Shown here: positions 1,397 to 46,763 of the stretch, piece by piece | Position numbering within the stretch: position 1 is the first letter of the stretch | Layout: each line of letters begins with the position of its first letter | Assembly: GCF_007751715.1 (NCBI RefSeq) | Contig: NZ_CP036292.1 | Span: 7,075,339 to 7,139,338, forward strand | Origin: Rosistilla oblonga | Lineage (GTDB): Bacteria; Planctomycetota; Planctomycetia; Pirellulales; Pirellulaceae | Reading direction: 5' to 3' | DNA length: 64,000 nt | Notes under the pieces: generated by a model | What the model was told of the DNA's origin: nothing | Databases searched by the model: none | Seen by the model: only the letters and a program-made list of their open reading frames with translations | Position numbers and translations under genes: made by a program

Positions 1397-1988
1397 TGGC
1401 TCTCTCAATTCACATCGCTTCCGTTGACTCGATCCCGTTGCACCAAACCTATCGCAACAACCCTTCGGACAATCCCAGCATATGCCAAATCACCGTCGAG
1501 CGATCGGGGGCCTTGGTCCTAAGCCAACCCCACTGCTCGAGAAAATCACAGCAGGGACAGTCTATATTTTCGCGGAGAGCGATTGCCCATCCAGCGAGCG
1601 AGTTTTGTACCGCCCGAAAAGGAGCTCTGTCCCCGAATTGTTCCGCCTCCGGAATGCCTCGATGCTCCCGGAAGGATCGCAGATCGATATGCGTCCCCGT
1701 TGGGGGCGACGGGCGATTACGCGATCGAGTCCGGTGGTATTCGCTGCGCTCAAACCACCGGCTACCTTCTGTGGCCGCTTCGCGGTCCGTTGAATCTGGA
1801 ACCTCGATCAGGGACAGTCTGCATTTTCGGGGAGAACGCCTGCCCGTCCAGAGAGCGACAGACCACGGATAGCGGACATTTGAAGAGGGCCGCAGGAGTA
1901 CGCATCACGCACCTGCGGCGTTAAACTGCTCGGTAATCTTTAAAGTGACCGGATTGCGAGGGACTGCAAAAGCTCTCGTTAACTCCGA
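1397..1988. repeat. Intergenic spacer with dispersed repeat copy 1
   Basis: No supported gene lies between ilvA and the GH97 gene. The spacer holds a composite repeat at about 1553-1870: a GGGACAGTCTAT box near 1556, a CTCTGTCCCCG box near 1625, a GCGTCCCCGTTGGGGGCGAC segment near 1690, a hairpin with stem CCGGTGGT (1731-1738) / ACCACCGG (1754-1761), and a second GGGACAGTCTGC box near 1810. The same modules in the same order recur at 4062-4270 and the hairpin recurs (opposite strand) near 31635 and 34003. Short open frames through it are chance readings of the repeat. Confidence 0.8.
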
Positions 1989-3908
1989 TTAGTCCTGAGC
2001 GACAAAATGGATCGCTTCACCGCTGCGAGCCGCCAGCGGGATCTCTAGCGACTTGCTGGCGGCGACCGATTCGTTGCGAATCCCAACGTGGGTCCGCGTG
2101 GCGACTTGTGAGTCGTGGAAATAGCGTCGCGCCGTAAACGTTTGCTCGTCGCTGAGGAAGTCCAACGGCACCGACAGGGTCCGCGGTTGGTCGCCGTTCA
2201 TCGCTCCCAAGAACCAATCTTTTCCGCTGCGACGGGCGATGACGGCAAACTCGCCGATCTCTCCTTGCAAGACGCGGGTTTCGTCCCAGACGACGGGCAG
2301 TTCCCGATAGAACTCCAGTTCCGGTTCGTCGCCGATCCGGCCTTCTGCCGTTGCGCCGGGACCGGCGGGGCGATCGTACCAGTAGAGGAATTGCCACGGG
2401 CTGTAGAAGCAGACGCCTTTGGCCAATTGATAGGCGTGGTTGGCGTTCCGCGTCACGCGGCTGTTGAAGTAGCAGATCGTATGGTCGGCCGCCCCACACA
2501 ACATTCGCGTGAACAGAATCCGCAGCGTCTGTTGATTCGAAGGTGACGTTTCGTCGCCGCCAATTCCCTCTTGAGTCATCAGGTTGGGATAGGTCCGCTC
2601 GTAGCCGGTCGGTCGGTATTCATCGTGGATGTCGACCATCAATTGGTGCTCGGCGGCTTTGCGAACCGCGTCGTGCAACCACTGCGTCCACTTCTGCGGA
2701 CCGACGTTTACAAATCCGTATTTGACTCCCGCGATGCCCCATTCTTGATAGAGGTCAAGGATTTGGTCGAGCTGTTTTTCCAGAGCTCGCCGGTTTACAT
2801 AGACAATGATTCCGATCCCGTGCTGCTTGCCGTAACGGATCACTTCGTGAAGGTCCAATGGCCCGGCGGACCGTTTGGGATCGACGGTGATCGTCGATGC
2901 ATCGGACGAATCGTCGTATTCGTGTCCGTACCATCCGGCGTCGTATTCGACATACTGCAACCCGTTGGCGACCGCGAAATCGATGCAGGCCTTTCCGCCG
3001 GCGGTCGTCAACGTCACCTCGCGGATGACTTTGCCGGGGCGAATCCAAGAGGTGTCTTCGATCGCGCAAGGATCGTTCAAATTTAAACTCAATGCGTTGT
3101 TGTTAAGCAGCTCCGCCGGCGAATCGGCGACCATCACGTAACGCCATGGTGTGGTGACACCTCCTTGGCAAACCACTTCGCTGGCCAATTGAGCCTGCAG
3201 CGCGTTGTCGACACCCTCGACAGGTTCCAACCGCATGCGAGCGTAATCGACCAACCGAGCTTCGCCGACGGCGAGGTATAGATCCTTGCGAGCCGACAGG
3301 ACCAGCGGCCGTTCGCAGTTCTTCTTGACCTCTTGCAACTTGGTCTGTTCGTAGACACCTTGTGCCGAATAGACGGGCCAACATTTGTGATTTCCAGTAA
3401 ACCGGAACTCGGTCTGTTCCCGTTGGATCACAAAGTCTTTCAGCCCATCCTGTTCGGGGACATGGTAGGCGAAGGCGATCCCTTCGTTGTAGGCGCGGAC
3501 CCGCAACGTCATCCGCCGCGGCGGTTGTTGCGAATCGATCAGATCGATCTCCGCTTGGCGATAGTGATCGCGAATCGAACTCCGCTCGCCATAGACAGGA
3601 CTCCACGTCGAATCGTGCGAACTGGTCCGCACCGCTTGAACCTGAAACCCATCCAACAGCGACGGGGCGTCTCGCAGCACCAAGCCCAATCGCGACGGCT
3701 CGATCACCTGTTCGCCCGATGCGAGGACGGAATAGCGAAGGGTGCCGTCGGAGCAATCCAACCGTAGCGACAATCGATCGTCGGGCGAAGCGACAGCGAC
3801 CGACTGAGGCTGCGGATCAGCAGCCGTCAGATTCGCGTGAACCCCAAGTCCTATCAAGCTAAAGAGAAGCGTCCGAAGCAAACCAACACGAAGCATTCGA
3901 CAAACCAT
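1989..3908 (-). CDS. Glycoside hydrolase family 97 (alpha-glucosidase/alpha-galactosidase-like), secreted
   Basis: Predicted exported glycosidase acting on alpha-linked sugars. The ATG at 3906-3908 gives MVCRMLRVGLLRTLLFSLIG, a typical signal peptide ending near the AANLTAA-like region, and a 639-residue product, normal for GH97 (about 640-740). An N-terminal beta-sandwich (roughly 35-290) precedes a (beta/alpha)8 domain with YVEYDAGWYGHEYDD, GIAGVKYGFVNVG and LMVDIHDEYRPTG, and a C-terminal sandwich follows (AVIARRSGKDWFLGAMNGD). The frame stays open about 75 codons further upstream, but that extension runs through the dispersed repeat, so it is not coding. The gene stands alone, with repeat copies on both sides in direct orientation. 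I cannot decide inverting or retaining mechanism from the residues alone. Confidence 0.88.
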   Translation of the reverse strand: MVCRMLRVGLLRTLLFSLIGLGVHANLTAADPQPQSVAVASPDDRLSLRLDCSDGTLRYSVLASGEQVIEPSRLGLVLRDAPSLLDGFQVQAVRTSSHDSTWSPVYGERSSIRDHYRQAEIDLIDSQQPPRRMTLRVRAYNEGIAFAYHVPEQDGLKDFVIQREQTEFRFTGNHKCWPVYSAQGVYEQTKLQEVKKNCERPLVLSARKDLYLAVGEARLVDYARMRLEPVEGVDNALQAQLASEVVCQGGVTTPWRYVMVADSPAELLNNNALSLNLNDPCAIEDTSWIRPGKVIREVTLTTAGGKACIDFAVANGLQYVEYDAGWYGHEYDDSSDASTITVDPKRSAGPLDLHEVIRYGKQHGIGIIVYVNRRALEKQLDQILDLYQEWGIAGVKYGFVNVGPQKWTQWLHDAVRKAAEHQLMVDIHDEYRPTGYERTYPNLMTQEGIGGDETSPSNQQTLRILFTRMLCGAADHTICYFNSRVTRNANHAYQLAKGVCFYSPWQFLYWYDRPAGPGATAEGRIGDEPELEFYRELPVVWDETRVLQGEIGEFAVIARRSGKDWFLGAMNGDQPRTLSVPLDFLSDEQTFTARRYFHDSQVATRTHVGIRNESVAASKSLEIPLAARSGEAIHFVAQD

Positions 3909-4061
3909 TGAGTGGGAGCGGGAAATAAAAAAGCCTGCATGCAATATAGTCGAAGGAGGATGCAGCGGGATCAACTGTGTCGAGGCCTGCCAGAGCTGTT
4001 GAGTGACGGTGTTAACGTAATCGCAGGCATGCGTTGGTGCGGCATTGTTCAAAACCTCAAG

Positions 4062-4330
4062 CAGGGACAGTCTATCTTTTCGGGGAGAATGCGTGCCCGT
4101 CCAGAGAGCGACTTCGGTACCGCCTGAAAACAAGCTCTGTCCCCGAATTGCTCGATCGATATGCGTCCCCGTTGGGGACGGCGGGCGATTACGCGATCGA
4201 GTCCGGTGGTATTCGCTGCGCTCAAACCACCGGCTACCCTCTGTGGCCGCTTCGCGGTGCGTGGAATCTGGTAGCGATTTGATTTCGGTGGTATTCGCTG
4301 CGCTCCCAACCGTTGGCTCGCTTCTGCGAA
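4062..4330. repeat. Dispersed repeat copy 2 (direct orientation with copy 1)
   Basis: Contains the GGGACAGTCTATC box, the CTCTGTCCCCGAATTG box, GCGTCCCCGTTGGGGACGGC and the hairpin CCGGTGGT (4203-4210) / ACCACCGG (4226-4233), all in the order of copy 1 and 2472 bp downstream of it at the hairpin. A decayed second hairpin module (CGGTGGTATTCGCTGCGCTC) begins near 4287. The rest of the 3909-4468 spacer shows no gene; it must carry the divergent promoters of the GH97 gene and the dienelactone hydrolase gene. Confidence 0.8.
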
Positions 4331-4468
4331 CCGTGCTGGATCGTTGGATTCAACACGCCTGTTGTTTCGGTGACGCATTCTCGATCGTGGGCGCGACTTC
4401 CGTTAAACTTGTTTTCGCGTTTTTGCGCGTCGTTTAACTCAGCTCACGAACCCTTCAGGATCTCTCTC

Positions 4469-5257
4469 ATGCGATACGTGTTTGCCGTTCTGTTCGCCTC
4501 CCTGGTCAGCTTGCACACGGCGACTGCCGAAGTCCAAACCAAGACTGTCCAGTACACCGATGGCGATGTCACGCTGGAAGGTTTTGTGGCTTGGGATCCC
4601 GAGAAAGCTGGAGCAAATGCTCCCGGCGTGTTGGTCGTGCATCAATGGATGGGGCTTTCCGATTACGAAAAGGGACGCTGCAAACAATTGGCCGAACTCG
4701 GCTACGTCGCGTTCGCTGCGGATATCTACGGCAAGGGGATTCGTCCCGCCAACCGGCAGGATGCCGCAAAGCAAGCGGGCGTCTACAAAAATGATCGCGA
4801 TCTGTATCGCCGCCGCTTGAACCTTGGGCTGGACCAGCTGCTGAAAATCGAGAACGTTTCGGCCGACAAAGTCGCCGCGATCGGGTACTGCTTCGGCGGC
4901 ACCGGCGCGTTGGAACTGGCTCGCAGCGGCGCCAAGATCGGTGGCGTCGTCAGCTTCCACGGCGGCTTGGATTCTCCCACGCCAGCGGACGGGAAAAACA
5001 TCGAAGCCAAATTGCTGATCTGCCACGGAGCGGACGATCCGTTTGTTCCGGCTGACGATATCGAAGCCTTCAAAGCCGAACTAAACGCCGCCGACGTCGA
5101 TTGGCAGATGGTTTATTACTCCGGCGCCGTCCATTCGTTCACGCAGCCGATGGCGGGCAACGACAATTCGGCCGGTGCGGCTTACAATCCGCGCGCCGAC
5201 CGACGATCATGGAATGCAATGCGAGTCTTCTTCACGGAATTATTCGCCGGCAAATAG
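4469..5257 (+). CDS. Dienelactone hydrolase family protein, exported
   Basis: Alpha/beta hydrolase of the dienelactone hydrolase family, which cleaves lactones or small esters. The ATG at 4469 starts a clear signal peptide (MRYVFAVLFASLVSLHTATA) and gives 262 residues, the family's size plus a leader. The catalytic triad is visible: nucleophile C141 in GYCFGGTG, aspartate in HGADDPF (D189/D190) and H222 in GAVHSF. The frame extends upstream to 4313, but that stretch lies in repeat sequence. It is the first gene of a close plus-strand group: 46 nt to the ceramidase-like gene. The physiological substrate is unknown; export suggests action in the periplasm. Confidence 0.9.
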   Translation: MRYVFAVLFASLVSLHTATAEVQTKTVQYTDGDVTLEGFVAWDPEKAGANAPGVLVVHQWMGLSDYEKGRCKQLAELGYVAFAADIYGKGIRPANRQDAAKQAGVYKNDRDLYRRRLNLGLDQLLKIENVSADKVAAIGYCFGGTGALELARSGAKIGGVVSFHGGLDSPTPADGKNIEAKLLICHGADDPFVPADDIEAFKAELNAADVDWQMVYYSGAVHSFTQPMAGNDNSAGAAYNPRADRRSWNAMRVFFTELFAGK

Positions 5258-5303
5258 AAGCTATCGTTCTTCCCACCTGAGTCCCCGCACGAGATCCCAC
5301 CCA

Positions 5304-6758
5304 ATGCCTCTGCCTACCAAGTTACTCCGCGTTGCAGCGTTCCTGTTTCTTGTCACCACAACCTGCGTCGCGGACGATCTGCGGGTGGGAGTGGCCGATG
5401 TCGATATCACGCCTTTGGAGTCGTATCCGATGGCGGGATATTTTCACGAGCGGTTGTCGACTGGCCAGCGGGATCCGCTGCGTGCCAAGGCGATTGTGAT
5501 GCGTGACGGTGAGACAGCTTGTGCAGTCGCGTTCTGCGACATGCTCGGTGTCTCGCGCGACCTGTACGAAGAGGTCCGCGATCAAGCGGCCAAAGCGACG
5601 GGGATTGCTCCCGATCAGATCGTCGTTTCGGCGACGCATGCGCACACCGCGCCGGACTACTTCGCCGAACTGTATCGGGTTCAACAGCAACCCGATTCCG
5701 AAGCTTCGAAAAAGAGTTATGCGAAATACTTAAGCAACCAGATCGTCGCGGCGATCGTGCAAGCCAACGCTGCCGCAGTGCCGGTCAGCATCGCTTGCGG
5801 GCAAACGAACCAAGAGACTCCCGTCTCGTTCAATCGTCGATTTGTGATGCGTGACGGCAGCGTTGCCACGTGGCAAAACCATCGCAATCCGAAAGTCGTC
5901 CGAGCGGCGGGTCCGATCGATCCCGAGATCGGATTGCTGATGTTTCGCTCGGCAGCCGACGATCAACCGCTGGGCGTCATGAGCAACTTTGCGTTGCACC
6001 TAGATACCGTCGGCGGAACCCAGTGGAGTGCCGATTTCCCGTTTTACATCGAACAAGCACTCCGCAAGCATTTGGGCGAACAAACCATCTCGCTGTTTGG
6101 TGCGGGAACCTGCGGCGACATCAATCACTCCAACCCGAACCAAAAGGAACGGAACAAGTGTGATATGATCGGCGGCTCGCTGGCGACAACGATCGTCGAC
6201 GCGTTGCCGACGCTTACTAAAATCGATTCGCCGCGTCTGCAAGTCTCACACGCCGTGGTCCAGTTGCCGTTGCAAGAGGTTTCGCCACTGGAAATCGAAC
6301 GAGCCCAGCAATTGATCCCCGCAGCCGAAGCGGGTGAAAAGATCGCGATGATGGATCGGGTCGCGGCCTACAGAGCGTTGCATTTGTATCAACTGCGGCA
6401 CGGGGAACCCGTTCCCGATATCACGCCTCGCCGTCAGGTGCACAGCCTGCGTGGCGTCGGGGCGTCGCTGCCGGTCGATGTGACCACGATCGCGTTGGGT
6501 GATCAAGCGGCGATCGTTTTCCTGCCCGGTGAGGTCTTCGTCGACATCGGTCTGGCGATCAAACGCGGATCTCCCTATCCAACGACACTGGTCGTCGAAC
6601 TGGCCAACAGCAACGAGACGATGTACATCCCCACTCGCGGCGCTTTCGCGGGGGGCGGATATGAAGTCATCAACTCTGCGGTCGCACCTGGCAGCGGAGA
6701 GATGTTGATCGAATCGGCGTTGACACAGTTGCGACAATTGGCGACGCCAGGCCAATAG
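5304..6758 (+). CDS. Neutral/alkaline ceramidase N-terminal-like domain protein, secreted
   Basis: 484 residues from the ATG at 5304, which begins a signal peptide (MPLPTKLLRVAAFLFLVTTT). It carries the neutral-ceramidase-like fold seen widely in planctomycetes: RVGVADVDITPLESYPMAGY at the mature N-terminus, the metal-ligand loop VSATHAHTAPDYF, SNFALHLDTVGG, GAGTCGDINHSN and PGEVFVDIGLAIK. It lacks the C-terminal domain of true ceramidases, so amide hydrolysis of ceramide is only one possibility. The protein is second in the group, 88 nt before the ThuA gene. A paralogous domain forms the N-terminus of the giant protein at 26522-31558. Confidence 0.85.
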   Translation: MPLPTKLLRVAAFLFLVTTTCVADDLRVGVADVDITPLESYPMAGYFHERLSTGQRDPLRAKAIVMRDGETACAVAFCDMLGVSRDLYEEVRDQAAKATGIAPDQIVVSATHAHTAPDYFAELYRVQQQPDSEASKKSYAKYLSNQIVAAIVQANAAAVPVSIACGQTNQETPVSFNRRFVMRDGSVATWQNHRNPKVVRAAGPIDPEIGLLMFRSAADDQPLGVMSNFALHLDTVGGTQWSADFPFYIEQALRKHLGEQTISLFGAGTCGDINHSNPNQKERNKCDMIGGSLATTIVDALPTLTKIDSPRLQVSHAVVQLPLQEVSPLEIERAQQLIPAAEAGEKIAMMDRVAAYRALHLYQLRHGEPVPDITPRRQVHSLRGVGASLPVDVTTIALGDQAAIVFLPGEVFVDIGLAIKRGSPYPTTLVVELANSNETMYIPTRGAFAGGGYEVINSAVAPGSGEMLIESALTQLRQLATPGQ

Positions 6759-6846
6759 CGACCCCTTGCCGCGACACGGCTATAATTTGCGTGATCGTCC
6801 GCCGGACGATCACGCTCTCCCCCAACAACACCCAAGAGTAATTCCC

Positions 6847-7803
6847 ATGCTGCGTACCCTTTTACTGCTGTTACTAGCGCTGGTCCCGCTGTCCGCCGGA
6901 GCTGCTGAAAAGCTGAAGGCGCTGATCGTCGATGGTCAAAACAACCACGAAGACTGGCCCAAGACAACGGTCATGATGAAGCGGTATCTCGAAGAGACCG
7001 GGCGGTTCACCGTCGATGTGCGACGCACCCAATACACCTGGAACGGCGGAAAGCTGCTGGACGATTATCCGCTGAACGACGGACGCAAATACCAAAGCCT
7101 CAGCAAGCCGAAGTCCGACCCCGACTTCAAGCCAACCTTTTCCGATTACGACGTCGTGATCAACAACTTCGGTCACAGCGCGGCGGCTTGGCCCAAGGAG
7201 ACGCAGACGGCATTGGACAAGTTCGTCCATTCCGGTGGCGGGTTGGTCGTGGTTCATGCGGCGGACAACGCGTTCTCCGAATGGCCACAGTACAACAAGA
7301 TGATTGGGCTGGGTGGCTGGGGCGGCCGCAATGAGAAATCGGGGCCTTACGTGTTCATCGACGCCGAAGGCAAAACGGTTCGCGACACGTCGCCAGGGCG
7401 AAGCGGAGCTCACGGACCGCAGCACGAGTACCAGATCGTCGTCCGCAATCCGGACCATCCGATCACCCGCGGTTTGCCCCGTTCGTGGATGCACACCAAA
7501 GATGAACTGTATCAACAACTGCGGGGCCCAGCCGACAAGATGACGATCCTGGCAACCGCCTTTGCCGCCGAAAATTTCAAAGGGACCGGACGCCACGAAC
7601 CGATCATGATGACGATCGATTACGGCAAGGGACGTGTCTACCACACGCCGATGGGACACGCCGATTATTCGATGGAATGCGTCGGGTTCATCACGACACT
7701 GATCCGCGGAACCGAATGGGCTGCGACGGGGGACGTCACCCTGACCGAAGTTCCCAAGGACTTCCCGACCTTCGAAACGGCGAGCAAGCGGTCGTTCGAA
7801 TGA
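6847..7803 (+). CDS. ThuA-like domain protein, secreted
   Basis: 318 residues from the ATG at 6847 (MLRTLLLLLLALVPLSAGAA, signal peptide). The ThuA domain is a glutamine-amidotransferase-like fold linked to trehalose and other sugar use; visible motifs are KALIVDGQNNHEDWPKTT at the start, YDVVINNFGHSAAAWP, GGLVVVHAADNAFSEWP and the C-terminal GKGRVYHTPMGHADYS. No catalytic cysteine is visible where amidotransferases have one, so the biochemical role stays open. Its TGA overlaps the ATG of rsmE (ATGA at 7800-7803), so the two are probably translationally coupled. Confidence 0.85.
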   Translation: MLRTLLLLLLALVPLSAGAAEKLKALIVDGQNNHEDWPKTTVMMKRYLEETGRFTVDVRRTQYTWNGGKLLDDYPLNDGRKYQSLSKPKSDPDFKPTFSDYDVVINNFGHSAAAWPKETQTALDKFVHSGGGLVVVHAADNAFSEWPQYNKMIGLGGWGGRNEKSGPYVFIDAEGKTVRDTSPGRSGAHGPQHEYQIVVRNPDHPITRGLPRSWMHTKDELYQQLRGPADKMTILATAFAAENFKGTGRHEPIMMTIDYGKGRVYHTPMGHADYSMECVGFITTLIRGTEWAATGDVTLTEVPKDFPTFETASKRSFE

Positions 7804-8522
7804 GTCAACGGTATTTAGTTCCCGATCTGATCGGCCACTCAAGCGTCGCCCTGACCGACGATGAAGCGCATCATGCCGCCGGCGTGATGCGAGTTAAACC
7901 GGGGGCGACGCTGACCTTGTTCGACGGTCAAAACAACGAAGCTCAAGCGACCGTCGAATCGGTTTCTCGCAAGCGAGTGGAATGCCGGATCGATCAGATC
8001 GGCGAGGTCGATCGCGAATCGCCGCGGATGCTGTTGATCGCTGTGGCGCTCCCCAAAGGGGATCGCGCTCGCAGCGTGATCGAAAAAGCTGTCGAACTGG
8101 GAGCTCACGGCTTCGTGCCGATCGTCTGCCGCCGTTCGGTCGCTCGCCCCAGCGATGGCCAACGAAAGCGGCTTGAGCGGTACGTGATCGACGCCAGCAA
8201 ACAGTGCGGGCGGAATCGTTTGATGCAGATCGCCCCGGCAATCGCTTGGTCCGATTTTGTCACCGCCGACGCGAGCGCGTTGTTCGACGGTACGACGATA
8301 GATCCACCGGCCGATGTGCAGCGGATCGTGGCCGACCCGACAGGCGTTTCAGCCGACCCGAGCGGCCAGCACCCGGTGTTGTTTGCCGTCGGTCCCGAAG
8401 GGGGCTTCGATCCCGAAGAGATTCGGTCGGCGCTCGATGCCGGATGGTCGACGATTTCGCTGGGACCGCGGATCTTACGAGTCGAAACTGCGGTCGGCGC
8501 GCTGCTGTCGATCGCTCAGTGA
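7800..8522 (+). CDS. rsmE: 16S rRNA (uracil(1498)-N(3))-methyltransferase
   Basis: 240-residue cytoplasmic SPOUT methyltransferase that methylates U1498 of 16S rRNA using SAM. The start ATG at 7800 overlaps the ThuA stop; the next residues SQRYLVPDLIGHSS form the N-terminal PUA-like domain with EAHHAAGVMRVKPG. The SPOUT knot shows IEKAVELGAHGFVPIVCRRS, FAVGPEGGFDPEEI and the C-terminal LGPRILRVETAVGALLSIAQ, all diagnostic of RsmE. The last 7 nt overlap, tail to tail, with the last 7 nt of the TolC gene. Confidence 0.95.
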   Translation: MSQRYLVPDLIGHSSVALTDDEAHHAAGVMRVKPGATLTLFDGQNNEAQATVESVSRKRVECRIDQIGEVDRESPRMLLIAVALPKGDRARSVIEKAVELGAHGFVPIVCRRSVARPSDGQRKRLERYVIDASKQCGRNRLMQIAPAIAWSDFVTADASALFDGTTIDPPADVQRIVADPTGVSADPSGQHPVLFAVGPEGGFDPEEIRSALDAGWSTISLGPRILRVETAVGALLSIAQ

Positions 8523-14881: not shown

Positions 14882-14944
14882 GCGAGCAAATCGGTTGCGG
14901 AGCCAGGGCAAAGCCTTGATTCTACCGATCGCAACCGCCGACGC

Positions 14945-31558: not shown

Positions 31559-31616
31559 CCACTCCGTTCCCATTGCGGTCCGCAGCACGGACGATTTATT
31601 CGCGAACGATCCCGAC

Positions 31617-33756: not shown

Positions 33757-34100
33757 TGGAGCCATCGCAGTCAAACGCCCAAAATCCACGAAGCGAAACG
33801 CGGTAGCACACCGATCTGCGATCCCTCCGGGATCACCTCGCGTTTGGGTCAGCATTCCGGAGCTGCGCCGCTGCGCGACAACCTCCGGCTACCTTCTTGC
33901 ATCCCTTCGGGATCGTCGCATCGGACGCAACCGCACCAGCACTCCACCAACCGTACCAACGTCCCAACAGCCCATGGACCGCGGAGCGGCCCCAGAAGGT
34001 AGCCGGTGGTTTGAGCGTTGCGAACACCACCGGAAAACCAACGCCCATCAAATCACCGCCCCCAGCGGGGGCGCACCTCGATTGCCCTCGCGGAGTGTCA
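33757..34100. repeat. Dispersed repeat copy 4 (module B then A)
   Basis: Module B: CCGGAG (33857-33862) / CTCCGG (33883-33888), followed by TGCATCCCTTCGGGATCGTC. Module A: CCGGTGGT (34003-34010) / ACCACCGG (34026-34033), followed by CCCCAGCGGGGGCGCACCTC. Both modules have the same strand orientation as in copy 3, but in swapped order. The rest of the 33566-34214 spacer contains no supported gene; it must hold divergent promoters for the zincin and porin genes. Confidence 0.8.
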
Positions 34101-34214
34101 CAATCGTTAAAATCGGCTAGTCGCTCGATGGGGAACAAACGCGAACCGATAGATAAACAAGGTGTGAAGCGAACGAGAACAAACTCACGTCAAATCCCCA
34201 ATCCGCTGCAACAA

Positions 34215-35486: not shown

Positions 35487-35585
35487 TATCACCGAAGGGC
35501 ATGGTGCCTACGCATACATCACGTGAACTCAACGTTCTCGGCGCCTCCCCGTTTTAAAACGAGCGTCTTCCAACCCGCGAGGGCA

Positions 35586-36548: not shown

Positions 36549-36617
36549 CGAGGAAGTGTTGTTGTCGGGTTGGATAAGGCAGCTTGCGACGCAACAGGCT
36601 TTCGGCAATCGAGATGG

Positions 36618-39124: not shown

Positions 39125-40071
39125 GATTTTTGACTTTGCAAAATTTGATCGATTTCAGTTCGTGTCGGCATGCCCGGCTGAGCTCCAGGGCGAGTCGCGG
39201 CCAATGCGCCGGCGACGGCAGCAAAACCGGCGGCTTCAAACAAGTTGGCTCCTTCGGCCAAGCGAACCGCCAACGCGCCGGCAAACGCATCGCCGGCGGC
39301 TGTTGTGTCGACCGGATCGATCGGCGTCGGATCGATCCGCCGAATTGTCGTTCCATCGCTAGCGACCGCGCCGCGCGACCCAAGCGTCAGGATCACCTGT
39401 CGGGCTCCCCGAGCGTGCAGACGGGCGATCGCGCGATCGATCTCTTCGTCGCTTGAAACCGGATGCCCGACGATCGCCTCGGTCTCCGATTCGTTGGGGC
39501 AGATTAGATCGACGCGCAGTAGCGAGTCGTCCAACGTCGCTGGCATCGGAGCGGGATCCAGCACGATCGTGACTCCAGCTTGTCGCGCGACTTCGATCGC
39601 GGCTTGGACGGTTTCGATCGGGACCTCCAATTGCAGCATCAGCACATCGGCGGTGCGGATCCGGTCGGCAAACGTCGTGACATCGGCTGGAGACAGCTGG
39701 GCGTTGGCACCGGGAACGGCGACTATCGAGTTTTCGCCGCTGCTTTCAACAGCAACGATCGCCAGCCCGCTGGGCGTTTCCGTTGTGGGGAGCACGCCAT
39801 CCGTAGCGACCTGTTCGCGTTGCAGGTTCTCGACCAAGCGGCTCGAAAACGCGTCGTCACCAACGCGTCCGATCATCGACACGTTGCCGCCGGCCCGCGC
39901 GGCGGCGACAGCTTGGTTGGCCCCTTTGCCGCCGGGAACCTCCGCCGACGAATCGGCGATGATCGTTTGCCCCGGCCGCGGCAACTGGTTGCAGCGGATC
40001 ATGAGATCCATGTTGATCGAACCGAGGACCACGATCTGTGCCCCTCGATTCGTTGACTCAGGCGTGCTCAT
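39121..40071 (-). CDS. rbsK: Ribokinase (PfkB family)
   Basis: 316-residue cytoplasmic kinase making ribose 5-phosphate from ribose and ATP. Motifs: VVLGSINMDLMIRCNQLPRP at the N-terminus, the PfkB signature EVPGGKGANQAVAAARAGG, and the catalytic segment PVDTTAAGDAFAGALAVRL containing the anion-hole glycine and the base aspartate of AGD. The start ATG at 40069-40071 overlaps the stop of the upstream nucleoside hydrolase gene by four bases (ATGA). A longer frame upstream lies inside that gene and is not coding. Confidence 0.93.
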   Translation of the reverse strand: MSTPESTNRGAQIVVLGSINMDLMIRCNQLPRPGQTIIADSSAEVPGGKGANQAVAAARAGGNVSMIGRVGDDAFSSRLVENLQREQVATDGVLPTTETPSGLAIVAVESSGENSIVAVPGANAQLSPADVTTFADRIRTADVLMLQLEVPIETVQAAIEVARQAGVTIVLDPAPMPATLDDSLLRVDLICPNESETEAIVGHPVSSDEEIDRAIARLHARGARQVILTLGSRGAVASDGTTIRRIDPTPIDPVDTTAAGDAFAGALAVRLAEGANLFEAAGFAAVAGALAATRPGAQPGMPTRTEIDQILQSQKS

Positions 40072-41117
40072 TGCTTCGGTGGCTCGCTGGACAACAGGAC
40101 CAAGGTTTCGACGACGCGCAACTTCTGGGCGTCGGTCAGCGTCAGGTATTGATGCAAGCCATCTTCCGCCGGTGCGAAGGTCGTCAGCCCATCGTCGGCG
40201 ACGGTGACCGTGCCGCGTGGGGAGAGTCCAAAATAGTCGCGTCCCGGACGCACGGCGATCAGCACGCTGGTCAGATCCCAAGTCGGTCGATTGTGGGGGG
40301 GCGGATTGTAAGCGATGTAGGCTTCGGCCAACGGATGATGTGGCACGTAGCCGTAATCCTGTTGGATGCTTTCGTGCGGATAAGCGACAGCCAAACCGAT
40401 CTCAAAACCGCTCCAGAGGATCGGCGTTGGCCAATCGGTGGCGAGAGCTTGAGCAGCCGGAATGTCTTTGATGATGTTGTATTCCTTGTGGTCGTACGGG
40501 CCCTTGGAACCGGAGATCTTAGTGAAAGCGCCAGCCATCGCCGACAGCAAGCGAACCTTCTTTTTGACAAGGGCCGTGCCGTCCAACGGGCTCACATCGT
40601 CCGGTTTTGACTTCAGCAGATCTGCTAGGTTCGTCGAAAAGCCGACTTGAGCGATCACCACGCTGCCATCCTCTGCGTCGGCCAGCGCCTTTCGCAAGAC
40701 AGTCACCGCGTTGGGAGCGTCTTTGCCCGATCGCAGGTCGTGTGGGAAACGGAATTCATCGCCATCTTTGATCGATGCCAAGCCGTTGAATCGCCCGGTG
40801 CCAGGCGTCACGCCGCTACGGCAGACTCCGATCGGAATCTCGCCCCGTCCATAAAACGTGTTGACGGCATCGGTGAAGGGAGCGGCCATCGGATCGTCTT
40901 TGGTGATCGTCACGGCAAGCAGTTCGCATTCGCCGCGAGTCTGCAACGCGTGGATCATTCCCAACGCCAGCACATCGTCGACGTCGTTACCGATGTCGGT
41001 ATCGAAGATCAACGGCACCGGACGTTTTACATCGTCGGCATTCGATACAGCCGGCAGACAGCACAGCGATACCAGCATCAGCGGCAGGACGAGAGAGCGT
41101 GAACGATCGATCATCAT
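40068..41117 (-). CDS. Nucleoside hydrolase (IUNH family), exported, copy 1
   Basis: 349 residues from tandem ATGs at 41115-41117/41112-41114 with GAGG eight bases before. A signal peptide (SLVLPLMLVSLCCLPAVSNA) sends it to the periplasm. The calcium-binding aspartate cluster FDTDIGNDVDDVLALGMIHA is the hallmark of nucleoside N-ribohydrolases, which split nucleosides into base and ribose. It is a close paralogue of the gene just upstream (35 nt between them); most of the mature sequences align without gaps. Released ribose could be taken up by the transporter of this operon. Confidence 0.9.
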   Translation of the reverse strand: MMIDRSRSLVLPLMLVSLCCLPAVSNADDVKRPVPLIFDTDIGNDVDDVLALGMIHALQTRGECELLAVTITKDDPMAAPFTDAVNTFYGRGEIPIGVCRSGVTPGTGRFNGLASIKDGDEFRFPHDLRSGKDAPNAVTVLRKALADAEDGSVVIAQVGFSTNLADLLKSKPDDVSPLDGTALVKKKVRLLSAMAGAFTKISGSKGPYDHKEYNIIKDIPAAQALATDWPTPILWSGFEIGLAVAYPHESIQQDYGYVPHHPLAEAYIAYNPPPHNRPTWDLTSVLIAVRPGRDYFGLSPRGTVTVADDGLTTFAPAEDGLHQYLTLTDAQKLRVVETLVLLSSEPPKQ

Positions 41118-41152
41118 GGGAAGAACCTCTGGGGTGTCGGGTTTCGTAGCGT

Positions 41153-42199
41153 TCAACGTTGGGGCGGTTCGCTGGACAAGAGGACCAGCGTTTCGATCAC
41201 GCGGAGTTTTTGGTCCTCGGTCAGCGTGAGGTATCGGTGGCGGCCGTCGGGCGACGGTGTGAACTGGGTCGATCCATCGTCGGCGACCGCAACGCTGCCG
41301 GGCTGGGAGATGCCAAAGTAGTTGCGATTTGGGCGAACGACTTGCAACACGCTGGTCAAATCCCAGGTGGGACGATTGTGCGGCGGAGGCAGGAACGCGA
41401 CGTAGGCTTCGGACAGCGGATGATGCGGCACGTAGCCGTAATCCTGCTGGATGCTTTGGTGCGGGTAGGGAAGCGAGATGCCGATCTCGTAGCCGCTCCA
41501 CAAAAGCGGCGTCGGCCAATGGTGAGCCACCGTTTGCGCCGACGGGATGTCTTTGATGATGTTGTATCCCTTGTGATTCTTCAGCCGACCGACCGCTTCG
41601 GCGGGCTTGGGAAATGCGCCAGCCATCAACGACAACAGACGGACCTTCTGTTTGACAAGAGCTTCTCCGTCCAACGGGCTCGCCTGGTCCGGTTTCGATT
41701 TCAGCAGGTTCGCCAGGTTGGTCGAAAAGCCAACTTGAGCGATCACGACGCTGTGATCTTCAGCCGCAGCCAACGTCTCTCGCAAGACCGAGACCGCATC
41801 GGGAGCATCGTCTCCCGACAAAAGATCGTGCGGGTAGCGGAGGCGCTGGCCATCTTTCTGCTTCGCCAGTTGCGTAAACCGCCCCGGTTCGGGAGTTTTT
41901 CCACTGCGGCAGACACCGATCGGAATCTCTCCCCGTCCGTAAAACGTATTGACGGCATCGGCAAACGGAGCGGCCAGCGGATGATCTTTGGTGATCGTCA
42001 CGGCCAACAGTTCGCACTCGCCGCGCGACTGCAACGCATGGATCATCCCCAGCGCCAACGCATCATCGACATCGTTGCCGATATCGGTATCGAAGATCAG
42101 CGGCACCGGCCGCCTTTCATCGCCAGCAGCTAACGCGGGTAAGGCAACGGTCCAAGCCAACATCAGCGTAACGGCGGCGCATCGAAAACAATCGAACAT
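41153..42199 (-). CDS. Nucleoside hydrolase (IUNH family), exported, copy 2
   Basis: 348 residues, ATG at 42197-42199, signal peptide MFDCFRCAAVTLMLAWTVAL. Calcium-site motif FDTDIGNDVDDALALGMIHA (D37 to D46) and the downstream AVNTFYGRGEIPIGVCRSG and DYGYVPHHPLSEAYVAFLPP blocks are shared with copy 1. First gene of the six-gene operon. Tandem duplication followed by modest divergence suggests either dosage or different base preference (purine versus pyrimidine nucleosides). Confidence 0.9.
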   Translation of the reverse strand: MFDCFRCAAVTLMLAWTVALPALAAGDERRPVPLIFDTDIGNDVDDALALGMIHALQSRGECELLAVTITKDHPLAAPFADAVNTFYGRGEIPIGVCRSGKTPEPGRFTQLAKQKDGQRLRYPHDLLSGDDAPDAVSVLRETLAAAEDHSVVIAQVGFSTNLANLLKSKPDQASPLDGEALVKQKVRLLSLMAGAFPKPAEAVGRLKNHKGYNIIKDIPSAQTVAHHWPTPLLWSGYEIGISLPYPHQSIQQDYGYVPHHPLSEAYVAFLPPPHNRPTWDLTSVLQVVRPNRNYFGISQPGSVAVADDGSTQFTPSPDGRHRYLTLTEDQKLRVIETLVLLSSEPPQR

Positions 42200-42715
42200 C
42201 AGGTGGGAAACTTTCCAGGGGATAGGAGGCGTAGCGGTTGGATCGGCATTGCAATCGGATCGTCAAGGGAAGATAGGATCCTCTTGGCAGTCGGACGTGA
42301 CAGTATAAAACCGCCGCCACAGAAATGCCATCGCGTGAGCGCGGTTGCCGAACGCGAAACCCTATTTCCATCTGCGTCTCTCTACTCTCGTCCTTTCCAC
42401 CCGGCGATCATTCTGCCCCATCATTCTGCCCCATCATTCTGCCCCATCATTCTGCCAACCCGAGCATCGTTTGGCCCAACCGCACAAGCATCTGCTTCTG
42501 CGTCTTCGGTCGATCGAACGCGCGGCCCGCTGGGCACGCGGTTAAACAAAAAGCGCGGGCCGTTTGGGGTGGGGGTGTCGCCTGGGCAACGTTGCTTTGC
42601 CGCCAGATCCGGTGCGAACGTTTTTCCACAATAACGGTCTGCTTAGGTGTAGTTCTTGGATCGAGGGCAACGACCTCGCCCTGAAACTCGAAGCTGTTAC
42701 GAGAGGAGTTAACTG
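42200..42715. promoter_or_regulatory. 516-bp divergent spacer (operon promoter region)
   Basis: Separates the nucleoside/ribose operon from a divergent small gene and should carry both promoters. It contains the 13-bp tandem repeat described next and an 8-bp stem CGGCCCGC (42523-42530) / GCGGGCCG (42555-42562) near the small gene. No regulator gene (RbsR-like) is adjacent. Frames reading through the tandem repeat are not supported as genes. Confidence 0.5.
42407..42456. repeat. 13-bp direct tandem repeat, 3.8 copies
   Basis: Unit ATCATTCTGCCCC occurs at 42407-42419, 42420-42432 and 42433-42445, then a partial copy to 42456. The copies are identical. Period 13 is not a multiple of three or of a helical turn. 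A slippage-prone array in a divergent promoter region could vary in copy number between strains. Confidence 0.95.
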
Positions 42716-43009
42716 ATGGAATCGCTGGAAGAGAAGCTGCAATTTTTGCGAGAGACGTATCCGCTGGTGCCTCACACCTCGGCCGGGCAGATGTGGTCGT
42801 CGGTGCGGCGGATGAAAGCGGAAAAGGAGTTGGGAATTCCGATCAACCGCCGCACAGGATTTGCCGTTTCGCTGGAGTCGGGGTTAGCTGCGAATGAGAT
42901 GCAGGAGGAGGCGTGGGAGGAGTTTTACGCTGGCCTGTGCGATGACCTCCACCAGCGGTTTCCCGAGTTGTACCGCAGCATCTTTCGCGATGCCGCCGAT
43001 GCAACCTAA
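42716..43009 (+). CDS. Small hypothetical protein (97 residues)
   Basis: Start ATG at 42716 with a strong AGGAG site seven bases upstream. The product (MESLEEKLQFLRETYPLVPH...) is mostly helical and charged, with acidic C-terminal half (NEMQEEAWEEFYAGLCDDLH) and no signal peptide or membrane helix. I do not recognise the family. It lies 255 nt upstream of the AbiE pair on the same strand, but the long gap and separate ribosome-binding site argue against one operon. Confidence 0.65.
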   Translation: MESLEEKLQFLRETYPLVPHTSAGQMWSSVRRMKAEKELGIPINRRTGFAVSLESGLAANEMQEEAWEEFYAGLCDDLHQRFPELYRSIFRDAADAT

Positions 43010-43264
43010 CCGCACCGCTCCGTCCCAACGCAGCTCGCCCGAGATGCACAAGCGTGCGTGATTCACACGTCGACGCGGACCTTGCCGAGCAAGAGCAAAG
43101 CGATTGGGGGATCGTTGCCGATCCGTGGTTTGAACTTGAAGGCGGCGGCTTTTTCGGTTGGGGCACGACGACTCGGGGCTTGCTTCGTCTGCATCATTGT
43201 GTTCGACACGTGCGATCGCTCATGGTACAAAACACCTCCCGGTTCGATTTCCAGGAGGTCATTT

Positions 43265-43891
43265 GTGACGCAGCCCAAACCGTCGTCTCGTCTTTCACCA
43301 ACGCTTCGCGCGACGGAGATCTTTCGCGCTCATGGCGGCATGATGAGGATGGCCGATGCCGTACGGGTGGGGATCAGTCGTCGAACGTTGTACCAAATGC
43401 GAGACTCTGGACAGCTGGAGCAGCTGGCCCGAGGTCTCTATCGGATCGCAGACCTTCCGCCGCTAAGCGAACCCGACCTAGTCACGGTCGCAAAGAAGGT
43501 CCCCCAGGGAGTCGTCTACCTGATTTCAGCGCTCGCGTTCCATGGGCTGACGACGCAGATTCCGCATGAAGTGTGGATCGCGATACCGCGCAATAGCGAA
43601 CCGCCTCGGCTGGCCTTTCCTCCGACGCGAGCGGCTCGGCTCAGCGACACCGCCTATGAACTGGGGATCGAGAGACACAACTGCGATGGCGTGACCGTGA
43701 AGGTCTACTCTCGCGAAAAAACGCTCGTCGATTGTTTCTGTCGCCGAAACGAGACCGGACTCGATGTCGCGATCGAAGCGGTCAAGGCATACCGGACTCA
43801 AAAGCGGACCAACTTTGACTTGGTCATGGATTACGCTAAGAAGCTACGAGCGGCAAAGACGATGCGGCCCTATCTGGAGGCATTGCTGTGA
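43265..43891 (+). CDS. abiEi: AbiEi-family antitoxin (type IV toxin-antitoxin)
   Basis: 208 residues from the GTG at 43265, chosen because a perfect AGGAGG lies six bases before it. The N-terminal winged helix-turn-helix (GGMMRMADAVRVGISRRTLY QMRDS region, about 30-70, ending LARGLYRI) would bind its own promoter; the C-terminal AbiEi domain has PQGVVYLISALAFHGLTTQI, VTVKVYSREKTLVDCFCRRN and the helical end YAKKLRAAKTMRPYLEALL. In AbiE systems the antitoxin represses the operon and counteracts the nucleotidyltransferase toxin without direct binding. The stop overlaps the toxin's GTG start by four bases. A longer upstream frame to 43058 is not needed. Confidence 0.88.
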   Translation: MTQPKPSSRLSPTLRATEIFRAHGGMMRMADAVRVGISRRTLYQMRDSGQLEQLARGLYRIADLPPLSEPDLVTVAKKVPQGVVYLISALAFHGLTTQIPHEVWIAIPRNSEPPRLAFPPTRAARLSDTAYELGIERHNCDGVTVKVYSREKTLVDCFCRRNETGLDVAIEAVKAYRTQKRTNFDLVMDYAKKLRAAKTMRPYLEALL

Positions 43892-44838
43892 CGCGCGATC
43901 TGGCAGCGTCTGTTCGCGGGCGTCTGCTGCGTCAGGCAAAAGAATCGGGCCGCCCGCTGCAAGAATTGCTTCAGTATTTTGCGATGGAACGCTTCTTGTT
44001 CCGGTTGTCTCGATCGGAGCACGCCGATCGTTTCGTTTTGAAGGGAGCGCTCATGTTTCGTGTTTGGGGCACACCCCAGACGCGTGCGACGCGCGACATC
44101 GACCTGCTGGCTCGGGCCGACAATTCAGTCGACTCGATGACACAGATCATGCGGTCGGTTTGCGAACATGCGGTTGCACCCGATGGCGTTATATTTCACG
44201 GCCAGAGCGTGCAAGGCATCGCGATCAAAGAAGATGCCGACTACTTAGGCGTACGCGTGACGTTTCTGGCGACGATTCAAAACGCTCGCTTGCCAATGCA
44301 AATCGATATTGGGTTTGGGGACGTTGTGAATCCAGCGGCAATAGCGATCGCCTACCCCGCAATGCTCGACTTTGAACCGGCCAAGCTGATCGGTTACCCG
44401 CGAGAAACCGTGATCGCTGAGAAGTTTGAAGCGATGGTTAAGCTCGGGCAACTCAACAGTCGCATGAAAGACTTCTACGACATCCTTATTTTGTCCCGGC
44501 AGTTTGCCTTCGATGGCGAGTCGCTTGCCACAGCGATCTCCGCGACGTTTCGAAATCGAGGGACGACGGCCAAGGCGAATCCGCCGGCATTCTCCAATGA
44601 GTTTGCCAACGATCCAGGGAAGCAAATCCAGTGGGCCAGCTTCATTCGCAAATCCAAGCTTTCGGATGTACCCGATGCTTTAGCTGACGCGATTCGTGAG
44701 ATCGCTGGTTTCCTAAACCCCATCGCAAAAGCAATCGAGTCAAACGAGCCTTTCGCCGCCACCTGGATTCCCGGTTCCGGATGGATTAAGTCGCAACCGC
44801 CCGCCAACAGCGGGAGGGCTGTTGGAGGGACAGAGTAA
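43888..44838 (+). CDS. abiEii: AbiEii-family nucleotidyltransferase toxin
   Basis: 316 residues from the GTG at 43888 (GTGA overlap with the antitoxin). Nucleotidyltransferase motifs: RFVLKGALMFRVWG, then TRATRDIDLLARA with D70 and D72 as metal ligands, VIAEKFEAMVKLGQ and SRMKDFYDILILSRQF, matching motifs I-IV of the AbiEii/MenA fold. Related toxins modify tRNA 3' ends or otherwise block growth during phage infection. The last ~50 residues are not part of the core and end in a Gly/Ser-rich tail. Confidence 0.9.
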   Translation: MTRDLAASVRGRLLRQAKESGRPLQELLQYFAMERFLFRLSRSEHADRFVLKGALMFRVWGTPQTRATRDIDLLARADNSVDSMTQIMRSVCEHAVAPDGVIFHGQSVQGIAIKEDADYLGVRVTFLATIQNARLPMQIDIGFGDVVNPAAIAIAYPAMLDFEPAKLIGYPRETVIAEKFEAMVKLGQLNSRMKDFYDILILSRQFAFDGESLATAISATFRNRGTTAKANPPAFSNEFANDPGKQIQWASFIRKSKLSDVPDALADAIREIAGFLNPIAKAIESNEPFAATWIPGSGWIKSQPPANSGRAVGGTE

Positions 44839-44991
44839 ATTTTTGTTGGAGCCGACAGCGCTTGCCGTGGATGGTTGGTGGCAGGCTCCGCGGCGACGTG
44901 GGCTGCGGGAGAATTGCCCCTCGAGAACGCTGGCCCCGGCGATGTTCTGTTGCGATTAGAATACGGTGCCACGTCTTTAGTATTGCTTCAC

Positions 44992-45064
44992 GTTGGTCGC
45001 CTTTCGCTCCGCGAAAGTACGCCCGGGAAACACCGCTGATTTCGCGGAGCGCAAGGCGACCAAC
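44992..45064. repeat. Long hairpin repeat upstream of sulfatase
   Basis: Arms at 44992-45016 and 45040-45064 pair over 25 bp with one mismatch (GTTGGTCGCCTTTCGCTCCG start); the loop is 23 bases. The left arm recurs at 46693 after the sulfatase and at 53186, 53396 and 53633 in the palindrome array. Apart from this, the 44839-45103 spacer shows no gene. Confidence 0.9.
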
Positions 45065-45103
45065 GGCAGGCCTGCCTTCTTTTAGAACTGCAACGGGAGC
45101 CCC

Positions 45104-46684
45104 ATGATGAAGCCCTTCTTCCTGCGGACCTTCTGCCAATTGGCAGGCTGCGTTTTTGCAACCCTCAGCTTCGCTCATGCACTGATCGCCGCCGATGCCT
45201 CGCGGCCCAATATCGTTTACATTCTGGCCGACGATCTCGGGTACGGCGACTTGAGTTGTTACAACGAGCAGTCAAAGATCCCGACGCCCCATGTCGATCG
45301 ACTGGCCGCCGAGGGGATGCGTTTTAGCGACGCCCACACGCCGTCGGCAGTTTGCACGCCGACGCGTTATGGAATTTTGACGGGGCGTTATTGCTGGCGG
45401 ACGCGATTGACCAAACGTGTGCTCGATGGACTCGATCCGCCGCTGATCGACGCCGATCAAGTCACGGTTCCCGGCTTTCTTCGCGATCACGGCTACAGCA
45501 CGCACTGCGTCGGCAAGTGGCATCTGGGGATGCAATTTACCGATCGCGAGGGCAAGCCCGTGCCAGCGGTTCCGGTCGATCGACGCACGCCGCCGCGTCC
45601 GGGCCGCGACGTCGATTACGAACAACCGATCACCGGCGGTCCGATCGACCGCGGGTTCGATTCCTACTTTGGAATTTCAGCCTCTCTAAATATGCCGCCG
45701 TTGTGTTTTCTGCGCGACGACCGTCCGGTGATCCTGCCGACGATCGATTCGCCTCGCATGAAGACCGAATTCATTTCGGTCGATGCCGGGATGCGGTCTC
45801 CCGATTTCACGATCGCCAGCGTCATGCCGCGGCTGGCGGGCGAAGCGACCGACTGCATTCGGCAAGCTTGCGAAACTCCCGACCAACCGTTTTTCCTCTA
45901 CCTGCCCCTCACCTCGCCCCATCTGCCCGTCGTCCCCAATCAAGAGTATTTGGGACTCAGCCAAGCTGGACTCTATGGCGACTTTGTCGTCGAGACCGAT
46001 GCCTTGGTCGGCGCGGTGATCGATGAACTTGAGCGCTGCGGGATCGCCGACAACACGTTGGTGATCTTCACTTCGGACAACGGCGGTCTGTATCACGCCT
46101 GGGATGCTGCCGAAGCGGATGACGTGAAGCACTACCGTCCCAGCAAGCGCGGCGAGTCGGTTCGAGCGATGGGGCATCAGGGGAACCGGCATCTGCGTGG
46201 CACCAAAGCCGATATCTGGGAAGGGGGCCACCGCGTGCCGTTTGTCGTCCGTTGGCCGGGGAAGACGCCCGCGGGAACTGTCAGCGATGAATTGATCGAG
46301 CTGACCGATCTGATCGCCACCTGCGCGGCAATGCTTGGGAAACCTCTACCCGAAGGGGCGGGCCCCGACAGCTTGAACATCTTGCCAGCGCTGTTGGCCG
46401 CCAAGCCACCGCAGCCGGTTCGCGAATTTGCGGTCCATCATTCACTGTGGGGGCATTTTGCGATTCGCCAAGGTCCCTGGAAGATGATCCCGCAACGCGG
46501 ATCGGGCGGCTTTACGCGTCCCCGCGAGATCGACCCCAACAAAGAGGGAGGTCCTGTCGGTCAGTTGTATCATCTTGGCGACGATCCCTCGGAAACCAAG
46601 AACCTTTGGGATCAGCACCCTGAGGTTGTGACAGAATTGCAATCGCGTTTGCGACAGATCCAAGCTGACGACGTCGCGCCATAA
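45104..46684 (+). CDS. Arylsulfatase-type sulfatase, exported (formylglycine-dependent)
   Basis: 526 residues from the first ATG at 45104, signal peptide CQLAGCVFATLSFAHALIAA. The sulfatase signature is intact: SAVCTPTRYGILTGRY, with C84 the residue converted to formylglycine. Metal ligands are seen in YILADDLGYGD and in FTSDNGGLYHAW; KWHLGMQF contributes the active-site Lys/His pair. Planctomycetes use many such enzymes to remove sulfate from algal polysaccharides. It is transcribed alone, with repeat copies of one family on both sides. Confidence 0.93.
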   Translation: MMKPFFLRTFCQLAGCVFATLSFAHALIAADASRPNIVYILADDLGYGDLSCYNEQSKIPTPHVDRLAAEGMRFSDAHTPSAVCTPTRYGILTGRYCWRTRLTKRVLDGLDPPLIDADQVTVPGFLRDHGYSTHCVGKWHLGMQFTDREGKPVPAVPVDRRTPPRPGRDVDYEQPITGGPIDRGFDSYFGISASLNMPPLCFLRDDRPVILPTIDSPRMKTEFISVDAGMRSPDFTIASVMPRLAGEATDCIRQACETPDQPFFLYLPLTSPHLPVVPNQEYLGLSQAGLYGDFVVETDALVGAVIDELERCGIADNTLVIFTSDNGGLYHAWDAAEADDVKHYRPSKRGESVRAMGHQGNRHLRGTKADIWEGGHRVPFVVRWPGKTPAGTVSDELIELTDLIATCAAMLGKPLPEGAGPDSLNILPALLAAKPPQPVREFAVHHSLWGHFAIRQGPWKMIPQRGSGGFTRPREIDPNKEGGPVGQLYHLGDDPSETKNLWDQHPEVVTELQSRLRQIQADDVAP

Positions 46685-46692
46685 GCTGCAGA

Positions 46693-46763
46693 TGGTCGTC
46701 TTTCGCTCCGCGAAAAAACTTCCGAGAGGCACACTGCTTTCACGCAGCGAACGGCGACGTTCC
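46693..46763. repeat. Decayed copy of the hairpin repeat downstream of sulfatase
   Basis: Starts TGGTCGTCTTTCGCTCCGCG and ends in GGCGACGTTCC; it aligns in direct orientation with 44993-45064, but the right arm has several changes, so the hairpin is weaker. It lies nine bases after the sulfatase stop. Confidence 0.75.

Follow-up and report, generated by a model that had tools for sequence, protein, structure and literature searches.

In gene cassettes and composite transposons, a gene sits between two direct repeats. Repetitive extragenic palindromes (REPs) form a different background: RAYT genes are described in PMC2817692 as always flanked by two inverted REPs, whose usual copy number exceeds 100 per genome. 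According to PMC3733652, RAYT carriers include Planctomycetes and R. baltica, and the recombinant Escherichia coli RAYT cleaves REP DNA at GTAG. A role of REP clusters in recombination has already been reported in other bacteria. In Pseudomonas fluorescens SBW25, such clusters were proposed, and seen, as hot spots of large rearrangements (PMC11708052), and the same source cites Shyamala 1990, the title of which concerns REP sequences at a duplication join-point. For the TRIP1 repeats of Escherichia coli, PMC10888264 reports 156 rearrangement events, with zero to five copies at set loci. A literature search for repetitive extragenic palindromes and synteny breakpoints together found no paper.

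The DNA analyzed here, referred to as the window, is a stretch of 64,000 nucleotides (C1:7075339-7139338) of the single 7,250,512-bp contig of Rosistilla oblonga. A preliminary description had proposed that three genes for secreted hydrolase-type proteins, each bracketed by direct repeats, form single-gene cassettes. The comparison with two genomes of the same genus, G001 (7,437,004 bp) and G002 (7,475,804 bp), for which 400 kb (6.85-7.25 Mb) of the 7.25-Mb R. oblonga genome were aligned with stretches of both relatives, points to another reading: the repeats are probably orphan REP arrays acting as reused recombination joints, at which large chromosome blocks are rejoined, rather than the ends of single-gene cassettes. 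Over the shared DNA of the fetched stretches, the identities, which do not amount to a tree, are 91.7% between R. oblonga and G002, 90.0% between R. oblonga and G001, and 89.1% between G001 and G002. The repeat modules are named A, B, Bz, D, E and F, where B is a hairpin of the GH97 and zincin loci, D a second hairpin of the zincin locus and E the hairpin of the sulfatase locus.

The B and D modules resemble the GTAG-tagged REP/BIME elements and associated RAYT genes of PMC2817692 and PMC3733652. Each contains a short palindrome with GTAG at one end, the palindrome being preceded by GGTAGCCGG, as seen in 31625-31665 and, when the reverse strand is read, in 31746-31785. Their copies are extragenic and numerous, with at least 37 places in the R. 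oblonga genome for the GH97-side repeat (best 40 of 55 candidates scored) and at least 57 matches for a second B/D-family query (best 40 candidates scored); they alternate in arrays at the G001 loci L121 and L122, and adjoin a RAYT gene in G001. Unlike the elements described in PMC2817692, which usually exceed 100 copies, they are present in at least a few dozen, no partner RAYT was found in R. oblonga, and the printed E and F hairpins and the A family carry no GTAG tag. None of the five PF01797 loci of R. oblonga has A-F modules within about 1.5 kb. One of the five in G001 (L137, 6963232-6963570, 147 aa) has a B/D array immediately next to it on a single side. Its protein reads DHVD at a place where the HUH motif of the other 13 aligned proteins retains its second H; the D at this position suggests decay. 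One of the seven in G002 (L134) has a weak B-like hairpin match, again on one side only, and encodes a protein with an intact motif that is 55% identical to the G001 RAYT. At G002 L139, F copies flank both sides of a weak PF01797 match (29.7 bits, cut-off 23). Because the hairpins lie on one RAYT side only, the arrangement of a RAYT between two inverted REPs is reproduced at most in part. Judging from these sequence features, B and D are best filed as REPs, orphaned in R. oblonga. The five RAYT-like loci of R. oblonga were also considered as the source of the repeats in the window and rejected: one of 21 repeat stretches matched their flanks (at -20105, outside the window), and modules A, B, Bz, D, E and F gave no flank match.

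The same observations bear on the possibility that the transposase itself makes the breaks, by nicking REP hairpins whose repair then leads to rearrangements. The cleavage at GTAG by the E. coli enzyme (PMC3733652) and the position of the G001 gene beside a B/D array would fit this route, but it is made very improbable by the five R. oblonga loci, all free of B/D copies within about 1.5 kb, by the altered HUH motif of the G001 protein, and by the E and F hairpins, which lack the tag.

With the left sulfatase copy as query, the genome yields at least 102 matches (best 40 of 83 candidates scored). In contrast to TRIP1 as described in PMC10888264, the repeats considered here occupy dozens of places and belong to several families. 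In a search of 30 genomes with window positions 1-8520, the repeat part was matched in three same-genus genomes only (10 candidates scored per genome), and in 20 evenly spaced stretches (400 kb) the families are nearly absent, four of ten modules being matched, with one or two matches each. Repeats of the 6.85-7.25 Mb region of R. oblonga were collected de novo, each requiring two or more additional matches within 994 kb of the same genome. This gave 53 loci, from which repeats lying mostly inside called genes were left out, leaving the 35 intergenic loci. An even spread over all spacers irrespective of gene type, an outcome that the preliminary description had set against its own proposal, was not seen, since 34 of the 216 spacers in the 400 kb carry a repeat.

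The tight pairing of repeat copies is not due to chance. For the B family, 35 of the 37 listed places were used, two being left out, and merged to 29; among the matches listed, six neighbor pairs within 5 kb were found against 0.55 expected (maximum 5 in 5000 simulations), all six on the same strand. For the E family, 46 places from the 102 listed matches, merged to 37, gave seven neighbor pairs within 5 kb against 0.93 expected, again among the matches listed.

Hairpins at both ends of one-gene units might instead serve transcription, as terminators or mRNA stabilizers. The intergenic position of 35 of the 53 repeat loci and the high stability of the E hairpin are consistent with such a role. 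However, repeats are sparse in the sampled stretches, the window has no Rfam match at gathering thresholds (on which ground known structured RNA was rejected as a candidate), and the association with synteny breaks described below would be left unexplained. As the main explanation it is thus highly unlikely, while being compatible with, and not exclusive of, the reading of the arrays as recombination joints.

Among the three loci of the window, the GH97 glycoside hydrolase gene (1989-3908, minus strand; start uncertain in the gene calls) is bracketed as claimed, with both module pairs on the same strand and in the same order. To its left lie an A module (1550-1643, plus; 94 nt, 84% identical to 4060-4153), a B hairpin with copies elsewhere in the genome (1682-1799, on the minus strand, where GGTAGCCGG reads; 118 nt, 96% identical to 4154-4271) and a second, partial A module (1800-1859, plus). 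To its right, an A module (4060-4153, plus) is followed by a B module with a partial third hairpin (4154-4305, minus). In G002 the gene is present and the order ilvA-GH97-DLH is collinear, with A-type repeats on the left, B/D-type repeats on the right, and two extra genes within the bracket. In G001 the gene was found neither as a DNA match (best 10 of 124 candidates scored) nor in the 400-kb alignment; the left flank stops at 1537 and the right flank begins at 4061, in the right A module, the two lying about 0.30 Mb apart. At the ilvA end, at 1537, a repeat is present in R. oblonga, and none was found on the side of the other genome with the library of R. oblonga repeats. A search of genome contigs gave 143 GH97 relatives, none of them from Rosistilla among the best 80 listed; given that G002 has the gene, near records were left out of this search, and it has no bearing on G001.

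The sulfatase gene (45104-46684, plus strand) is present in both relatives. A long E-type hairpin (44990-45068, unstranded; 26-nt arms, 96% complementary) lies to its left and a degenerate E-type copy (46693-46763, unstranded) to its right, so that repeats on both sides are confirmed, but their direct orientation is not. The left copy is a near-palindrome, and the pair aligns equally well in inverted (30 nt at 87%) and in direct orientation (40 nt at 80%, 44994-45033 against 46693-46732), which leaves the orientation claim without force at this locus. The right copy is also weak: on folding against shuffles, the left copy is far better (z -8.2) and the right copy no better (z -0.5), and the right copy was not recovered at E ≤ 0.01 when the genome was searched with the left one (best 40 of 83 candidates scored). 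G002 is collinear across the locus. The G001 block stops at 46659, next to the right copy, the genes that follow lie 0.37 Mb off and inverted, and no repeat of the R. oblonga library was found on the G001 side of this end. A second bracketed sulfatase (L026) keeps its bracket in all three species; on its left side G001 diverges between 4867 and 5165, at the repeat. As a separate observation, G001 carries beside the sulfatase of the window an extra piece of 1.3 kb, flanked by a duplication of about 35 bp rather than by the E repeat.

The third gene, described as zincin-like (31859-33568, minus strand), encodes a protein with no Pfam match even at E ≤ 10 and no match among PDB sequences. The gene calls agree with the limits first given for this gene (31859-33565) and the sulfatase (45104-46684), and Pfam supports the identities of the GH97 and sulfatase proteins. 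On the left side of the zincin gene, a B-type REP hairpin (31605-31665, plus) is followed by a D-type one (31740-31822, minus); on the right side, D (33848-33930, minus) precedes B (33985-34040, plus). The D copies match over 77 nt at 86% (31746-31822 and 33854-33930) and the B copies over 41 nt at 95% (31625-31665 and 33993-34033), both on the same strand. The presence of both modules on one strand agrees with the preliminary description, but their order is swapped, from B-D on the left to D-B on the right. The gene was found in neither G001 nor G002, by DNA or by protein search. Near-full-length relatives occur in 11 of 79 other genomes in the protein search, while a peptide-pattern search of genome contigs gave none. 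In G001 its flanks break off at 31661 and 34069 and are separated by 0.14 Mb; in G002 they break off at 31665 and 33797, with 0.19 Mb between them. Codon score and GC3 (14th and 19th percentile, like the sulfatase) give no sign of a foreign origin.

In neither relative does any of the three loci show its gene cleanly missing, duplicated or swapped between two retained repeat copies, and the proposal of single-gene cassettes is not supported by this comparison. It is also in this lack of clean single-gene excision at three loci that they differ from gene cassettes and composite transposons. The expectation that the enclosed genes vary holds for GH97, not found in one of two relatives, and for zincin, not found in either, but not for the sulfatase, kept in both. 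The breaks fall at the repeats or next to them. Since the flanks of the missing genes lie 0.14-0.30 Mb apart, the unit moved is a large block. Recombination between repeat copies, which had been proposed as well, is the best explanation of several junctions, but a single gene as its unit is unsupported. The suggested focus on hydrolases is not borne out either: the neighbor pairs examined enclose zero to five genes of mixed type, clear hydrolases being a minority. Hydrolase-only cassettes were rejected on the basis of 19 neighbor pairs outside the window, 14 with whole genes (one gene in four pairs, two in six, three to five in four) and five without. Pfam analysis of 20 of the 33 bracketed genes gave four clear hydrolases (sulfatase, M14 peptidase, PIG-L, AXE1), besides two TPM-domain proteins, a ceramidase-like match below cut-off, transporters, a transposase, PIN/HTH and others; 20 random control genes gave two hydrolases (amidohydrolase, FAA hydrolase) and one dCTP deaminase-like protein. 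These counts are too few, and no preference is claimed.

That each repeat pair nevertheless bounds one gene, which recombination between the copies would excise, duplicate or exchange, is an unlikely explanation. It would account for the GH97 and zincin genes missing from some relatives, for the two extra genes in the G002 GH97 bracket, for neighbor pairs far above chance frequency and, through entry of a gene plus repeat into a resident array, for the non-resident left D of the zincin locus discussed below. However, no empty site with one repeat was found between the original GH97 or zincin flanks in G001 or G002, the sulfatase brackets are stable, and gene-sized indels also occur away from repeats, for example, at 16.7 and 59.6 kb. 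A gene with repeats on both sides is not necessarily a cassette, and the brackets are most plausibly the intervals left between joints.

The reading of the arrays as joints is supported by the position of the synteny breaks. Some ends were omitted from the break counts: for G001, 3 of 22, namely two that fall at tandem paralogues and one at the limit of a fetched stretch; for G002, 4 of 24, half of them at tandem paralogues and half at a collinear 9.8-kb indel. One G001 end was shifted from 93607 to 93573, the start of a second alignment match. Before the omissions, 13 of 22 and 15 of 24 ends, respectively, were no more than 200 bp from a repeat. In the final counts, 11 of 19 ends in G001 (p 0.003) and 14 of 20 in G002 (p 5e-5) have an intergenic repeat at a distance of 250 bp or less. 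As one event makes several ends, these are not independent. Counted as distinct sites, 15 of 25 have an intergenic repeat no farther than 250 bp away, against a null of 26% of spacer bases (p 3e-4), and a circular shift of the whole pattern reaches the observed count in 0.1% of trials (p 0.001). Over the 400 kb, breaks are held by 15 of 34 spacers with repeats and by 10 of 182 without (p 5e-8); for spacers of at least 200 bp, the values are 12 of 30 and 6 of 71 (p 4e-4). Among spacers of at least 150 bp, the effect is significant in co-directional (52) and divergent (50) ones, not in the 16 convergent ones. At L035, too, blocks are parted at repeats in G001.

A common cause, in which repeat insertion and rearrangement are both tolerated in certain of the spacers that separate transcription units and the repeats are not causal, is rather unlikely, although several observations suit it and speak against the arrays as joints. 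Ten of the 25 break sites are more than 250 bp away from any repeat, and in the control stretch L016 (20 kb) both relatives break near 11 kb, where no dispersed repeat is present. On the partner side, scanned with R. oblonga repeats only, the 40 ends divide into 15 with repeats in both genomes, 11 with a repeat only in R. oblonga, one only in the partner and 13 in neither; that is, 15 of the 26 ends with an R. oblonga repeat also have one in the partner, and for 11 of 26 none was found. Against a common cause, the repeat effect stays in a logistic model that includes spacer length and gene orientation (p 4e-5), and in G001 both the X-Z and the b-a junction, described next, pass through the hairpins themselves.

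The rearrangement around the zincin gene involves the blocks X (ending at 31661), a (33.8-51.5 kb), b (53.4-86.09 kb) and Z (from 86.03 kb), with r for a repeat. The order is X-r-zincin-r-a-b-r-Z in R. oblonga; G001 has X-r-Z in one place and b-r-a elsewhere (a up to 46.7 kb), and G002 has b-r-a, on the other strand. More precisely, 34069-46659 followed by 53632-86089 in R. oblonga equals 53632-86089, r, 34069-46659 in G001, and the G002 counterpart is 53398-86089, r, 33797-51522, so that b-r-a of both relatives is a circular permutation of a-b in R. oblonga. This 52-kb segment occupies 34069-64000 of the window and extends to about 86,090, beyond it; its start, at the right zincin hairpins, falls at 33797 against G002 and at 34069 against G001. 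An array of E and F hairpins (53063-53764, unstranded) holds a block boundary, at 53632 (G001) and 53398 (G002). The outer joints of the segment in R. oblonga lie in the B/D hairpin family, and no repeat was found at its right outer end in G001 or G002. The X-Z junction of G001 contains a single B hairpin, the left side of which matches X and the right side Z, and the b-a junctions of both relatives are B/D arrays. Homology at the joints is short, the left B copy giving 41-49 nt at 88-100%. Block X ends in this B hairpin (31661 for G001, 31665 for G002) and continues into zincin in R. oblonga and into Z in G001, while other DNA comes next in G002; with different DNA after X and a B hairpin each time, one hairpin-marked block end has three partners in three species.

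The D copies provide further indications. The right D of the zincin locus shares 97.5% identity with the D copy that both relatives have at their b-a junction, whereas the left D is only 84-86% identical to that copy and has no match in the G001 X-Z junction or at the G002 X end. The right D is thus the resident copy, and the left one came from elsewhere. Given a left D that does not belong to the resident array, the zincin locus might represent a genuine insertion of a gene with its repeat, one locus being too few to tell.

Taking into account that R. oblonga is nearer to G002 in shared-DNA identity than G001 is, the shared b-r-a order is probably ancestral. In a breadth-first search, the core change costs one circle move (excision and permuted reinsertion) or three inversions, and the circle route would be favored by economy; excision between two REPs is only a candidate, because the right outer end is free of repeats in G001 and G002. 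Overall, a RAYT transposase may once have spread the B/D hairpins between transcription units. The dispersed arrays would then provide homologous patches at which host homologous recombination rejoins blocks, some joints being reused in different species, and a directly bracketed gene would be whatever lies between two joints. At the zincin locus, the ancestral b-r-a may have been broken open; the b-a segment would then have joined the REP between X and Z, either in circular form or through the equivalent series of inversions, giving X-r-a-b-r-Z; the zincin gene with its divergent left D would have come to sit inside the array. On the sequence evidence, homologous recombination between dispersed REP arrays would be the simplest account.

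It is doubtful, though conceivable, that the arrays act more generally as docking ports. Circles made of chromosome segments of tens of kb, or of one gene with its hairpin, would be released from them and could integrate again wherever an array of that family lies. If so, gene order would be reshuffled between fixed joints, and the 52-kb block and the D-zincin-D arrangement would be products of one process.

Like the SBW25 clusters described in PMC11708052, the arrays of R. oblonga are dispersed REP clusters at the sites of large rearrangements. Unlike them, they belong to another phylum and another REP family, the evidence is drawn from comparison between species, and it includes reused joints and a circularly permuted 52-kb block. 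The findings call for caution, as bracketing by repeats alone is no proof of a cassette. They present short palindromic repeats, apparently derived from a transposase no longer found beside them, as reused break and join points, and thereby offer an explanation, open to testing, of why gene order is lost so quickly between these planctomycete species.

The protein encoded by the zincin-like gene (31859-33568, minus strand) carries the motif HEGxGHTVGLPHP, which exceeds HExxH, the usual zincin motif, by one residue. A pattern scan of 12 loci in the three forward frames recovered HEGxGHTVGLPHP in three relatives. A Pfam search and a PDB sequence search with the protein itself returned no match.

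Further along, two adjacent paralogous genes on the minus strand (40068-42163), nucleoside-hydrolase-like by eye, are about 76% alike by cross-match, and a stretch related to them also occurs near the junction of blocks b and a in both same-genus relatives, G001 and G002. At 43349-44838 (plus strand), directly before the repeat-flanked sulfatase gene, Pfam identifies an AbiEii-type nucleotidyltransferase; the 180-aa gene preceding it looks, by eye, like its partner.

An 892-aa gene present in both relatives at the site corresponding to 16642-16874 is missing there from the R. oblonga genome, and no repeat lies near this site. At L035, an R. oblonga locus whose blocks are separated at repeats in G001, positions 3051-4629 are insertion-sequence-like, with nine copies in G002 at 98-99%.

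Tandem organization was observed within the intergenic stretch 48763-48880, where a unit containing GGGATCTTTTAACAAGATCC is present in about three copies. At the G001 locus L121 (17513-19361), the B and D hairpins, both GTAG-tagged REP-type families, alternate in a regular tandem array, with seven B copies spaced about 290-305 bp apart. Regarding the five RAYT-like loci of R. oblonga, self-comparison revealed repeat arrays of other families near L004 and L005 and, apparently, near L003; such arrays are also visible by eye near L001 and L002. Some repeats near these five loci are shared with the 6.85-7.25 Mb stretch of the same genome.
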